A stretch of DNA of 6,565 nt. Source: Candidatus Portnoybacteria bacterium CG02_land_8_20_14_3_00_45_8. Its GTDB lineage: Bacteria > Patescibacteriota > Minisyncoccia > Portnoybacterales > GWB1-42-6. Made by a program: the position numbers and the translations under genes. Location: the NCBI GenBank assembly GCA_002780785.1, contig PEUE01000043.1, positions 1-6,565 on the forward strand. Reading direction: 5' to 3'. This document shows, piece by piece, positions 3,248 through 6,565 of this stretch (its first letter is position 1; every line of letters starts with the position of its first letter). The notes beneath the pieces are model-generated. The model was not told the DNA's origin. It searched no databases and saw only the letters and a list, made by a program, of their open reading frames with translations.

Positions 3248-3792
3248 ATGGAAACTTATAACAAACCAAAGGCGGCGGCCTTTGTTGATATTTCAAACAT
3301 ATTTTATGGAGCAAGGTATGCTAAATGGCGCATTTCTTATAAAAAAATCCAGGAACATCTAGAGAATAAATATGAATTAACCTTTTTTGCCTATATGGTT
3401 GCGAAGATAACAATCCGTCTAACGAAACATTTAAGGAAAGGGCGATAAAACAACAAGGATTTTATAATAAATTAGCCAGCTTAGGAATTAGCGTGTTTAA
3501 AAAACCGCTTCAATATATAGACGGAAAAATTGATGGAGATGTTGATGGCGATATTAAAAATGCCATACATAAGTTTATAAATGACAAGAAGATAGAGTAT
3601 ATTATTTTGTTTTCGGGAGATAAGCATTTTTTACCGGTAATTAAGGAATGCTGTAGCGCCGATAAACGAATTCAGGTTTATTCATTTAGGCAAGTTTTAT
3701 CAGACAAAATAAAAAACTTCGTTTTACAAAATGGTAATAAATGTAATTTTATATATTTAAATAAAAAAAGGAGTGAATTAGAGCATAAATAA
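3248..3792 (+). pseudogene. NYN-domain (LabA/limkain-type, PIN-like) protein, frameshifted
   Basis: The gene is split between two frames. The first part (3248-3448) begins METYNKPK and has FVDISN (Asp14, Asn17), then GARYAKWRISYKK, typical of NYN domains. From about 3394 the other frame continues as YGCEDNNPSNETFKE and runs to the TAA at 3790-3792. Inserting one T into TATATGG (3392-3398) to give TATTATGG restores an AYYGCED junction and a protein of about 181 residues. The second half has the acidic block DGDVDGDIKNAI and LFSGDKHFLPVI. NYN domains are metal-dependent nucleases of the PIN-like fold, using these acidic positions; here the usual SGDxDF reads SGDKHF, with His for the second Asp. 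No Shine-Dalgarno is visible. It is very AT-rich (a sampled line is under 30% G+C). A sequencing error, a true pseudogene, or recoding at the nearby T6 run are all possible. Confidence 0.8.
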
Positions 3793-4115: not shown

Positions 4116-4487
4116 ATGACGCTCAAAACTTACCTTTGGCTGATAGCGCTCGCCAGCTTCGTGGCGCTGGGTTGTTTTTTGGGAATTTTGTGGTGTTTCT
4201 CGCCGCAAAACGCCAACCCGACGATTTTAATTCTATTGTTTTTAAGTTTGTTTCTGGCGATGTGCGGCTTTTTCAGCTTGTTCGGATTTTACTGGCGGCG
4301 GAAGAGAAATAAAACCAAGCCGGCCGAACATTTTTTGGGCACGTCTTTTCGGGAAGGCACTTTGCTTAGCTTGCTTCTAATCGGTTTTTTGCTGATGCAG
4401 TTGGGCGGCGTGTTTTACTGGTGGACATCGTCAATTTTTTTAATAATCGTGGTGGCAATTGAAATTGCCTTTTTGCAGCAGGAATAA
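4116..4487 (+). CDS. Small four-helix integral membrane protein, unknown function
   Basis: The 123-residue protein is not recognised. It has four hydrophobic segments at about residues 5-27, 36-58, 80-100 and 103-120. A basic loop, WRRKRNKTKP (60-69), lies between the second and third and by the positive-inside rule faces the cytosol. The third segment begins with SFREGTLLSLLLIG, a pattern I associate with anonymous Patescibacteria membrane proteins, from memory only. The ATG at 4116 is chosen over an upstream TTG at 4059 because the extra 19 residues are basic and unlike the rest, and because that TTG lies within the promoter. Only a weak GGGA precedes it. It is 115 bases upstream of pheS, and may share its transcript, but the spacer holds a large inverted repeat. 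Confidence 0.75.
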   Translation: MTLKTYLWLIALASFVALGCFLGILWCFSPQNANPTILILLFLSLFLAMCGFFSLFGFYWRRKRNKTKPAEHFLGTSFREGTLLSLLLIGFLLMQLGGVFYWWTSSIFLIIVVAIEIAFLQQE

Positions 4488-4489
4488 AA

Positions 4490-4591
4490 AACATATAAAC
4501 ATCCGAACATATTAACATAAAAACATAGAGGGATAATTTTGCAGCCGTTCAATTAGATGTTGATGTTAAAATGTTAGTATGTTTGAATGTT
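4490..4591. repeat. AACATNNN octamer array facing its inverted copy
   Basis: AACAT occurs five times with an exact 8-base period (starts 4490, 4498, 4506, 4514, 4522). On the other side of a 30-base centre, ATGTT occurs at 4557, 4563, 4571, 4579 and 4587, the last four again in 8-base steps, with a degenerate ATGAT at 4595. The arms (4490-4526 and 4557-4591) are largely complementary and could form a stem of about 35 bp, with changes concentrated in the three variable bases of each octamer. The right arm ends 11 bases before the pheS start. No coding potential is seen. Confidence 0.8.
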
Positions 4592-4602
4592 AAGATGATT
4601 CT

Positions 4603-5622
4603 GTGATAGATAAAGTTAGAAAAAAGTTTGCGGAGGATTTAAAAAAACTCAGCGATAAACAATCGCTGGAGGACTTGCGCGTGAAATATTTGGGCCGGAA
4701 AGGGGAGTTAAATAAAATTTTGGAAAAGGTGAAGACGCTCGGTGAAAAAGAACGAGCGGAGCACGGCCGGCAGCTTAACGCGTTTAAGCAGGAAATTGAG
4801 CAGTTGTTGAAAGACAGCTGGCAAAAAGTTAAAACCGCAAGTCGGCAGTTGGCCGAAGAGTGGTTGGATATTACAGCTCCCGGCGCTAAGCCCTTGGTGG
4901 GTCACTGGCATCCGCGCACCCTGGTGCTGCGGGAGATTGAAAATATTTTCAAGTCGCTGGGCTTTTCTGTTGTTGATGGGCCGGAACTGGAAACCCAATG
5001 GTATAATTTTGAAGCGCTGAATATGCCCAAAGACCATCCGGCGCGCGATATGCAGGATACTTTTTATGTCAAAAATCCGGCGGGCGGAGAGGACTTAGTT
5101 TTACGCACGCATACCTCTCCCAATCAGATTCGTTTTATGGAAAAAAACGAACCGCCTTTTAGGATTATTGTTCCGGGCAAAGTGTTTCGTAATGAGGCAA
5201 CCGATGCTTCGCACGAATATCAACTGCATCAATTTGAGGGCTTAATGGTAGACAAGAATATTTCGGTGGCTAATTTTAAAGCGATAGTGGATGAGTTTTT
5301 CCAGCGGCTTTATGGTCCAAAAGCTAAAATCCGGTTGCGGCCCAGCTTCTTTCCTTTTACCGAACCCAGCTTTGAAGTAGACATGGCCTGTGTTTTTTGC
5401 GACCAAAAGGGATGCCGGGTCTGCAAAAATGCCGGTTGGTTGGAAATGGGCGGAGCCGGTATGGTTAATCAATTTGTCTTTGAATCGGCGGGCTATGTGC
5501 GCAATGAATGGCAGGGCTTTGCTTTTGGATTCGGAATAGATCGGCTGGCGATGTTGAAATATCATATCAATGACATTCGGTTATTAACGGGTGGAGACAT
5601 GAGGTTTTTGAAACAATTTTAA
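4603..5622 (+). CDS. pheS: Phenylalanyl-tRNA synthetase alpha subunit
   Basis: PheS is the catalytic subunit of the cytosolic alpha2-beta2 enzyme that attaches phenylalanine to tRNA(Phe). The 339 residues match the usual length. An N-terminal coiled coil (about 1-85, with LRVKYLGRKGELN at 25-37) binds tRNA. The class II core follows: HWHPRT at 101-106, motif 1 around GFSVVDGPELE, motif 2 FRNEATDASHEYQLHQFEG (195-213), and motif 3 GFAFGFGIDRLAML (305-318). Ala307 is the counterpart of the Escherichia coli Ala294 that lines the Phe pocket. Four cysteines, C263-x2-C266-x4-C271-x2-C274, lie before the GGAGMV strand and look like a zinc knuckle. The start is GTG, chosen because MIDKVRKKF is the family beginning; no Shine-Dalgarno is present. 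pheT follows after an unusually long 232-base spacer. Confidence 0.96.
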   Translation: MIDKVRKKFAEDLKKLSDKQSLEDLRVKYLGRKGELNKILEKVKTLGEKERAEHGRQLNAFKQEIEQLLKDSWQKVKTASRQLAEEWLDITAPGAKPLVGHWHPRTLVLREIENIFKSLGFSVVDGPELETQWYNFEALNMPKDHPARDMQDTFYVKNPAGGEDLVLRTHTSPNQIRFMEKNEPPFRIIVPGKVFRNEATDASHEYQLHQFEGLMVDKNISVANFKAIVDEFFQRLYGPKAKIRLRPSFFPFTEPSFEVDMACVFCDQKGCRVCKNAGWLEMGGAGMVNQFVFESAGYVRNEWQGFAFGFGIDRLAMLKYHINDIRLLTGGDMRFLKQF

Positions 5623-5681
5623 AGGGCTTTCTCTAAAATTTCAAGCACAAAGTGCGTAGAAATTTTAGCCAGAAAACCTTT
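5621..5681 (+). terminator. Interrupted hairpin at the pheS stop codon
   Basis: Starting in the pheS stop codon, AAAGG (5621-5625) pairs with CCTTT (5677-5681), TTTCT (5628-5632) with AGAAA (5671-5675), and CTAAAATTTC (5633-5642) with GAAATTTTAG (5659-5668). An inner GCAC/GTGC closes on AAA (5645-5648/5652-5655). It has no long T-tract after it, so termination is uncertain; it may instead protect the pheS 3' end or partly terminate ahead of pheT. Confidence 0.55.
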
Positions 5682-5791
5682 ACCCCGCCCCATTTCTTTC
5701 CAAGTTTGGCGGCGAACCATAAAACTCAAGAGAAACGGCTTCGCCTTACACAGGTGGACAACCAAGAACTTGGGTGGAAATGGGGCGGGGT
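5682..5791. repeat. GC-rich inverted repeat with 25-base arms in the pheS-pheT spacer
   Basis: The left arm 5682-5706 begins ACCCCGCCCCATTTC and the right arm 5767-5791 ends GAAATGGGGCGGGGT: 15 bp perfect, then three mismatches, then 7 bp (CCAAGTT/AACTTGG), so 22 of 25 positions pair. The 60-base interior has a further possible stem GGCGAA/TTCGCC (5711-5716/5740-5745). No gene is seen in it on either strand. It is more G+C-rich than the AT-rich hairpins on both sides. Confidence 0.75.
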
Positions 5792-5854
5792 GCTCAATGT
5801 TATAGTTAAATTTTAACTCGCATTGGGCTCGTAAAAATTTAAATAACATTGAGC
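5792..5854. repeat. Inverted repeat ending at the pheT start codon
   Basis: GCTCAATGTTAT (5792-5803) and ATAACATTGAGC (5843-5854) are perfectly complementary over 12 bp. After a 2-base bulge, TTAAATTTT (5806-5814) pairs with AAAATTTAA (5834-5842), then two short GC-containing pairs lead to a 5-base loop near 5822-5826. The right arm ends at the base before the pheT ATG and occupies the place of a ribosome-binding site. It begins directly after the preceding repeat. Confidence 0.75.
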
Positions 5855-6565
5855 ATGAAGTTTTCCTATAATTGGCTGAAGGAGTATATCCCCGACATAC
5901 CCGACCCGAAAAAAACGGCGGGCGATTTGAATATGCGAATTTTTGAGGTGGAAGAAGTTCAGCCAATCGGTCGGGACTGGGCGCTGGACATCAAGGTCTT
6001 GCCTAACCGCGCCTTTGATTGCTTATCGCATCTGGGTATAGCGCGGGAAATTGCGGCCATAGAGAATATTGAATTTAAAATGCCGAAGGTGTCCTTGAGG
6101 GAAGACAAGGGTTTTAAAATAAAAGATTATTTGAGCGTTGAGGTGCGAGAGCCGAAGTTGTGTCCGCGTTACAGCGCGCGGGTGGTGGTTGATGTAAAAG
6201 TGGGCGAATCGCCGGAATGGCTTAAAGAAAAATTGGAAGTTTGCGGTCTGCGTTCCATTAATAACATTGTTGATATCACTAATTACGTGATGCTGGAATG
6301 CGGCCAGCCCCTGCATGCTTTTGATTTGGACAAGCTGGGTGAGAAAAAAATAATCGTCCGGCGAGCCGGTGAAGGAGAAAAGATAAACACTCTGGATGAG
6401 GGCAAGGCGCAGCGAATATTGAATGAAAATATTTTAGTTATTGCCGATGCCCAAAACCCAGTGGCCATCGCCGGGATTAAAGGTGGCCGCTTACCCGAAA
6501 TTAGCGCGTCAACTAAAAAGGTGGCGTTGGAGGCGGCTAATTTTGACCCGGTGAACATCAGGAGA
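5855..6565 (+). CDS. pheT: Phenylalanyl-tRNA synthetase beta subunit, N-terminal part, short form
   Basis: PheT is the large subunit of the Phe-tRNA synthetase; it carries tRNA-binding surfaces and the editing site that hydrolyses mischarged Tyr-tRNA(Phe). Only the first 237 codons are in the window; the gene runs off the right end. MKFSYNWLKEYI is the standard start and the ATG at 5855 is the only candidate; no Shine-Dalgarno is visible because a hairpin arm abuts it. The sequence goes from FEVEEVQPIGRDW (30-42) directly to ALDIKVLPNRAFDCLSHLG (43-61), so the EMAP-II-like tRNA-binding domain of about 110 residues, which ordinary bacterial PheT inserts here, is missing. The B3/B4 editing domain follows (about 105-237: RSINNIVDITNYV, QPLHAFDLDKL, NPVAIAGIKGG). 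With pheS just upstream, it is the expected partner. Confidence 0.95.
   Translation, partial: MKFSYNWLKEYIPDIPDPKKTAGDLNMRIFEVEEVQPIGRDWALDIKVLPNRAFDCLSHLGIAREIAAIENIEFKMPKVSLREDKGFKIKDYLSVEVREPKLCPRYSARVVVDVKVGESPEWLKEKLEVCGLRSINNIVDITNYVMLECGQPLHAFDLDKLGEKKIIVRRAGEGEKINTLDEGKAQRILNENILVIADAQNPVAIAGIKGGRLPEISASTKKVALEAANFDPVNIRR

Follow-up and report, generated by a model that had tools for sequence, protein, structure and literature searches.

The window, meaning the whole stretch of 6,565 nt that was analysed, carries gatA, two tRNA-Met genes, a tRNA-Asp gene, a GNAT gene, NYN-like pieces, a small membrane-protein gene, pheS and pheT, of which gatA and pheT were named by eye. The features in and around the gap before pheS are as follows:

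4116..4487, + strand: small membrane-protein gene upstream of the array, its start taken as the ATG at 4116
4488..4602, + strand: entire stop-to-start gap, predicted ladder-like stem-loop (−28.5 kcal/mol, z −4.64)
4490..4526, + strand: distal arm, five AACAT cores at 4490, 4498, 4506, 4514 and 4522, exact period 8
4527..4562, + strand: 36-nt loop between the arms, containing one out-of-phase ATGTT at 4557
4563..4599, + strand: proximal arm, ATGTT at 4563, 4571, 4579 and 4587, exact period 8
4603..5622, + strand: pheS, GTG start, 3 nt past the array

Five AACAT units at an exact 8-base period, facing four in-phase ATGTT units and one offset unit, had been described in the sequence-only reading, together with five constant core bases and variable three-base spacers. 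Both descriptions were confirmed when the array was re-read at 4490-4599, with the offset unit at 4557, distal-arm spacers of ATA, CCG, ATT and AAA in sequence, and a fifth proximal unit that is degenerate but in phase (ATGAT at 4595). Because the stop codon occupies 4485-4487 and the pheS GTG lies at 4603, the array fills the space from the membrane-protein stop to the pheS start, with 2 nt on the stop side and 3 nt on the start side outside the parsed array. Several relatives also carry a similar membrane-protein gene before pheS.

Two further observations were made in the window. The pheS-pheT gap (5623-5857) holds three stacked inverted repeats (5682-5706/5767-5791, 5791-5803/5843-5855 and 5803-5817/5831-5845), the outer arm of the last extending to the pheT start codon; in genome G005 (L156), 1 nt separates the pheS stop from the pheT ATG. 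The NYN-like gene at 3248-3792 is apparently split into two frames, 3248-3448 and 3493-3792, and the second piece matched the NYN model just under the cut-off.

The triple-octamer pattern was matched five times in the window and never in 200 dinucleotide shuffles. The fold predicted for the 115-nt gap (−28.5 kcal/mol, z −4.64) sets five left units against five right units and was equalled by 0 of 200 shuffles, while in a 201-nt context the z value was only −2.65. With Rfam covariance models at the gathering score, only three tRNAs were found in the window, and the array region gave chance-level matches. A known riboswitch, T-box or other Rfam leader was rejected, since no covariance model matched at the array with that score, and no group I intron context was found, the tRNAs being the sole Rfam families in the window. 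An intrinsic terminator was also rejected, as the stem is A+T-rich and no T-run follows it in the window.

In the window's genome (472 kb, 76% complete), 40 triple-octamer matches were obtained, against none with the pattern read backwards. Across 16 genomes chosen for having arrays, the facing order gave 157 nested matches and the inside-out order one. Chance origin of the array was ruled out by the 0 of 200 shuffles, by the 40 matches against 0 in the genome, and by the absence of arrays from block-shuffled copies. Facing arrays were present in 3 of 23 genomes of the order, and a stricter array form in 2 of 379 genomes sampled from the phylum. A scan of GTDB species genomes returned 87 stretches, comprising 66 titled as Patescibacteria lineages, 14 as unspecified bacterium and 7 as other phyla. 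Further facing arrays, which the sequence-only reading had proposed seeking in this genome and its relatives, were thus found elsewhere, far above controls. The pheS array is a single member of a dispersed repeat family whose hosts within Patescibacteria are patchy. Viral contigs yielded five octamer-pattern stretches; in four viral records (L150-L153) the contigs have a related ACATATGA/TTCATATGT array in common, and the octamer pattern matches it as well.

In total, 107 elements were parsed, and two array places of G000 were left unparsed with too few units. AACAT was found in 434 of 474 internal units. Among the 214 outermost units, for which the parser requires CAT, 106 read NTCAT and 70 AACAT; given this frequency of NTCAT, full copies read TCAT...ATGA. 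The arms are mostly 4-6 units long, with a median inter-arm distance of 17-19 nt, and they come paired (212 groups with a facing unit and 24 alone). The base preceding AACAT is genome-specific, being T in RS_12_54 (87%), G in AH-259-L07 (74%), and A or T in the window's genome.

The loop of the pheS array aligns with that of a copy in the ligA leader of the same genome (L033). Among the matches listed, the same-genome pairs L072/L088 and L094/L145 have common arms and loops and unrelated flanks. Together with the likeness of the window copy to the ligA copy, these pairs indicate that copies disperse. In this comparison at least 444 element pairs lay above the cut-off, and a single loop match without arms means little, the loops being short and A+T-rich.

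As to position, 92 copies had both neighbours, and 74 of these gaps were tandem, 16 divergent and 2 convergent, compared with 448, 47 and 53 of 548 other gaps. Eight of the 107 parsed elements (seven titled as other phyla, one of unclear origin) were removed only after neighbour parsing, so that some of them remain in both the 92-copy count and the 548-gap base rates. The two "convergent" copies proved, when read again, to adjoin an rpsN-like and an HU-like start, which also speaks against an intrinsic terminator at the family level. One "divergent" neighbour (L110) was a spurious ORF overlying a tRNA. A purely intercistronic reading was rejected, since true divergent pairs exist (ruvB, PilM/ComF-like and MBL-fold).

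By a nearest-start rule, 75 of 99 copies had the start of an ORF of at least 60 aa within 25 nt, and in 33 of these 75 the terminal ATG of the array is itself the start codon. Of 70 hand-picked tandem cases, 56 had the start side and 47 the stop side between −30 and +15 nt. When 11 of the 12 cases beyond +15 nt were read, an infC-like, an rpsN-like and a small conserved gene did begin at the array, and in L069 and L120 units continue towards a start; L048, L101, L142 and L147 remain as exceptions. In tRNA-tRNA gaps, the copy lay 1-4 nt from both tRNAs in seven of eight cases, and at 4 and 12 nt in the eighth. The downstream genes resemble, by eye, rpmF, ligA, rpoA, clpB, ruvB, rpsN, rplN, fusA, infC, efp and pilM.

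Promoters were searched for in two sets hand-picked from the parsed copies. The 28 copies with upstream room had eight strong promoters, six of them with the −10 box at the outer edge of the array (null means 1.1 and 0.35, maxima 4 and 3, respectively). The 32 operon or tRNA copies had one strong promoter and none with the −10 at the array edge. The six edge promoters include two orthologous pairs and therefore represent four genes. In copies with a recognisable promoter, the −10 box being mostly at the outer edge, the array would be the leader. A sigma-70 promoter inside the arms (TG-T-TNNNAT, resembling an extended −10) was rejected as their general purpose, because at the position where A is expected, A and T are about equally frequent at every rank.

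Within one family, a protein-based search located ruvB in 13 of 14 genomes, and TTGTCA was found upstream in 10 of the 13. TATAAT follows TTGTCA at 16 nt in four relatives, and TAGTAT follows at 17 nt in G427, which has no octamer array even though its RuvB and that of array-bearing G428 are 94% identical. In G428 and G437 the array's own TAACAT lies 17 nt after TTGTCA; in G426 the spacing is 14 nt, a non-standard promoter. In G426, G428 and G437 the array occupies the place of the former −10 and leader as far as the start codon, and in G436 the leader is a heptamer/octamer mixture. A degenerate 8-periodic sequence with no clear facing arm precedes the ruvB start at L229 (G441) and L230 (G439) and is possibly a decaying or nascent octamer leader.

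A Shine-Dalgarno 4-mer was present at 0 of 67 array-linked starts and 19 of 211 other ORFs (p = 0.009), the latter count being a likely underestimate because starts were taken as the first ATG.

The predicted stem is carried by the cores: all 71 elements folded (71/71) did so better than a shuffled copy. When spacers were redrawn from the same genome, the predicted stem became stronger, at −24.8 compared with the real −22.9 kcal/mol (p = 0.00025). Pairing of spacers across the arms was 0.381, against a null of 0.42 (sd 0.033), and under a same-genome null two of the three spacer positions matched across arms less often than expected (z −3.7 each). Spacer position 8 gave a match z of 6.1 over all genomes and 0.7 within genomes, and this signal reflects the genome-specific base, not pairing. 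A continuous duplex selected for pairing was not supported, since spacers are unpaired across the arms and the stem is weaker than with redrawn spacers. Compensating changes between the arms, which the sequence-only reading had proposed as a check, were looked for in core variants and none were seen; variants are equal in both arms (AGCAT, 8 and 9).

The arms are symmetrical relative to the gene (p = 0.14) and the loops show no strand skew and occur in either orientation, both on hand-assigned orientation labels. Unit number varies between copies and shows no correlation between the two arms (rho 0.06). Adjacent spacers were alike at 0.523 over all genomes, against 0.405. Under the same-genome null this shrank to 0.511 against 0.491 (sd 0.013), with position 6 alone at z 2.4; recent unit copying was therefore rejected as an explanation, being at most weak. 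At orthologous sites the cores differ at 23 of 360 positions and the spacers at 61 of 216, a comparison that is biased because both loci were found by the core pattern. The same bias affects core-conservation counts at most loci; those of pheS, rpoA and ruvB were chosen by protein.

Orthologous gaps were compared at several genes. In G005, which is among the closest genomes by PheS (65%), 4 nt separate the membrane-protein stop from the pheS ATG. By eye, the pheS gap was 4-8 nt in G013, G021, G017 and G010, and longer in G003, G011, G019 and G022. One refuting outcome named in the sequence-only reading, homologous pheS gaps that lack both the array and paired changes, was partly borne out, as the octamer array is absent there.

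The rpsD-rpoA gap was compared in 16 of 20 genomes with rpoA, the other four being partial or at contig edges. It was 26-33 nt without a strong stem in four (z 0.85 to −2.6) and at least 55 nt in 12, with a fold z of −4.9 or lower in 11 of these and −2.6 in one. The stems are mostly unrelated in sequence, being octamers in G000, heptamers in G022 and G019, and other palindromes elsewhere; those of G003 and G008 are alike. Octamers occupy the tRNA-Arg/Lys gap in L121 and heptamers that in L136, and L124 looks heptamer-like. Gap-spanning stems with z < −3 were found in 54% of 39 tandem gaps of 50-160 nt (loci chosen by protein) and, in array loci, in 27% of 146 non-octamer tandem gaps, compared with 20% of 15 convergent and 7% of 15 divergent gaps.

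A search for phased inverted arrays of periods 5 to 15 in 633 kb returned period 8 (72), period 7 (25, some overlapping) and period 14 (1); no other period was found, and nothing in three block-shuffled copies. The period-8 count is not a frequency, because the scanned loci were picked for octamers. Period-7 inverted arrays occur at L068, L069, L079, L099, L103, L136, L213 and others, partly in the same genomes as octamers, with unit types TAACGTG, AGTATYA, GAATYAA, CAATTWT, GTAATCA and AAACATA. The limitation of the period to 7, 8 or 14 is a constraint for any explanation.

REP/REPIN palindromes are dispersed extragenic sequences with many copies per genome that go with RAYT transposases. The octamer family resembles them in its many dispersed extragenic palindromes per genome, and differs in its position at gene starts, its phased octamers and the absence of an array beside the Y1 genes read. 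The RHH protein MetJ has 8-bp boxes. The omega heptads (WATCACW) of pSM19035 are, in the available portion of the source, contiguous boxes in direct and inverted order that overlap promoters (PMC9499535). The octamers are likewise contiguous; as far as that portion goes, they differ from such 7- or 8-bp boxes in forming two arms split by a loop, in also lying between tRNAs, and in that no cognate protein was found.

According to the accessible part of PMC4476775, the P6b stem of the Nostoc tRNA-Leu(UAA) group I intron is of variable length and built of a degenerate 7-nt repeat (TDNGATT or NNTGAGT), and one repeat class takes another's place at a given site while the fold stays unchanged. Both systems have a stem whose facing arms repeat a short degenerate unit, some positions of which are fixed and others free. 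As described there, P6b has period 7 and is one intron helix in one gene, whereas the octamer family has period 8, an AACAT core and many leaders or spacers per genome, scattered over a phylum. TAACTGA repeats, in the excerpt of PMC4679880 at hand, occur in Beggiatoaceae, Cyanobacteria and Bacteroidetes with patchy hosts; most lie several nt upstream of start codons where Shine-Dalgarno motifs are rare, the downstream functions follow no pattern, and a post-transcriptional role was proposed. Short exact units just before start codons, rare Shine-Dalgarno motifs and patchy hosts are thus common to both families. By the same excerpt, the TAACTGA repeats have period 7 and are direct repeats, with one exception, without predicted RNA structure, whereas the octamer family has AACAT-N3 units, inverted arm pairs and variable spacers, and lies also between tRNAs. 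As far as these partial texts extend, P6b and the TAACTGA repeats are the nearest described systems, and neither has the unit, order and distribution of the octamer family. Among the matches listed in mostly open-access literature, searched at the level of titles and abstract openings, no description of the family was found, and a term search of the available text of the RepRanger survey (PMC12306157) returned no mention of candidate phyla, Patescibacteria or Parcubacteria.

The AACAT-N3/ATGTT family, predicted to form a ladder-like stem-loop once transcribed, is read here as a leader or spacer element, with a probability of about 0.5. The family mostly fills the segment from a promoter, stop codon or tRNA to the next start codon or tRNA, and this segment would be transcribed, judging from promoter position and operon context. 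The transcribed array may then fold in the cell as an interrupted ladder-like stem-loop, a weak stem that would hold the start codon at its foot. Such a fold could set translation or separate cistrons, and so set or shield expression of the gene behind it; pheS would initiate at the hairpin foot and not from a Shine-Dalgarno motif. The family would spread by copying between spacers. The sequence itself argues for this reading through its architecture, an exact 8-base phase, a constant core, dispersal, nearly flush ends and adjoining starts without Shine-Dalgarno motifs; the computations add a core-borne stem that is weaker than the same stem with redrawn spacers. We read the fixed rungs and the apparently capped strength of the modelled stem as possibly keeping a start codon without a Shine-Dalgarno motif reachable, or the DNA palindrome stable.

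The sequence-only reading had offered three options, a protein-binding array, an RNA stem ending at the start codon and a hairpin-type mobile repeat. The RNA stem is the best supported by virtue of its position, the stem itself being a prediction. Several results run against the leader reading: spacers are unpaired across the arms and unit numbers uncorrelated, and core variants are uncompensated and equal in both arms, although an RNA stem with G-U pairing should tolerate one side more. The loops are unskewed, and the inside-out order is missing although it could fold equally, which common descent would explain. The array is also dispensable, being absent before ruvB in G427 and from most relatives, and the 14-nt spacing in G426 is not that of a standard promoter. 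Confidence is set at one half because the constraint results fit a protein-bound DNA array nearly as well.

In such an array, a DNA-binding protein that oligomerises at a pitch of 7-8 bp would coat a double-stranded operator, in the manner of MetJ or omega. The constant core, exact phase, spacers unpaired across arms and arms symmetrical relative to the gene agree with it, as does the occurrence of phased inverted arrays solely at periods 7 and 8 and one at 14. These features leave the protein-binding option standing, and no candidate protein was found: a single Pfam model, RHH_1 of a short family, was detected in 3 of the 16 genomes with arrays and in 1 of 9 without. The linked genes are general housekeeping genes and tRNAs, with no regulon, heptamer arrays of several units lie beside octamers in one genome, and lone arms are very rare; an operator array is considered quite unlikely. 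Unselected slippage and inverted duplication in A+T-rich spacers, with the array as by-product, would account for unit numbers that vary between copies and for related species holding different hairpins in the same gap. It is very improbable, given adjacent spacers hardly above the same-genome null (recent unit copying at most weak), orthologous cores differing far less than spacers (with the bias stated above), and stems weaker than with redrawn spacers.

The third option, a selfish palindromic repeat of REPIN- or MITE-like type spread by some enzyme, with leaders and operon gaps tolerating insertions, is doubtful, with roughly one chance in four. Patchy hosts with many copies, related loops at unrelated flanks and in either orientation, and the 4-nt gap at the orthologous pheS site of G005 speak for it. 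Y1 transposase genes, present in 13 of 15 genomes with arrays and in 5 of 9 without, may point the same way. Against it, the 25 copies in which both TCAT ends are present show no flush direct repeat of at least 3 nt, and allowing for shifts gave no excess. None of the Y1 loci read, 18 of 20, had an array within about 1.5 kb, L184 and L195 having single unit pairs; in G000 and G008 the Y1 genes bear a different palindrome of their own. At ruvB the former −10 and leader were replaced, not split, and convergent gaps are avoided. The many copies, patchy hosts and unrelated flanks expected of a mobile repeat were thus found, but not a target-site duplication, and no transposase was recognised beside the arrays of the window's genome among ORFs inspected by eye. 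Two specific forms were not supported: a MITE of a DDE transposon (target-site duplication in 0 of 25 copies, flush, at least 3 nt) and a RAYT-mobilised REP (no array beside 18 Y1 loci read, another palindrome at L196 and L198). The Y1 (IS200-like) transposase genes at L196 (G000) and L198 (G008) are 80% identical, although identity between the PheS proteins of these genomes is 46%; copies of the palindrome CTATTGAGGTTGAACCTCGATAG lie around and inside these genes and form a separate REP-like family.

Extended beyond the octamers, the leader reading would describe a general class in Patescibacteria, in which phased inverted 7- or 8-nt arrays replace the Shine-Dalgarno leader, the start codon is the last unit of a weak RNA ladder with fixed rungs, spacers are kept unpaired, and lineages swap unit families gene by gene; this wider proposal is speculative and probably goes too far. 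Patescibacteria are ultra-small and make up a large, mostly uncultured share of bacterial diversity. The octamer family occupies, in exact 8-base phase, the leaders of genes for ribosomal proteins, RNA polymerase, replication and tRNAs. It offers a concrete test object for how Patescibacteria start their genes, few of which have a Shine-Dalgarno motif in the loci read here.
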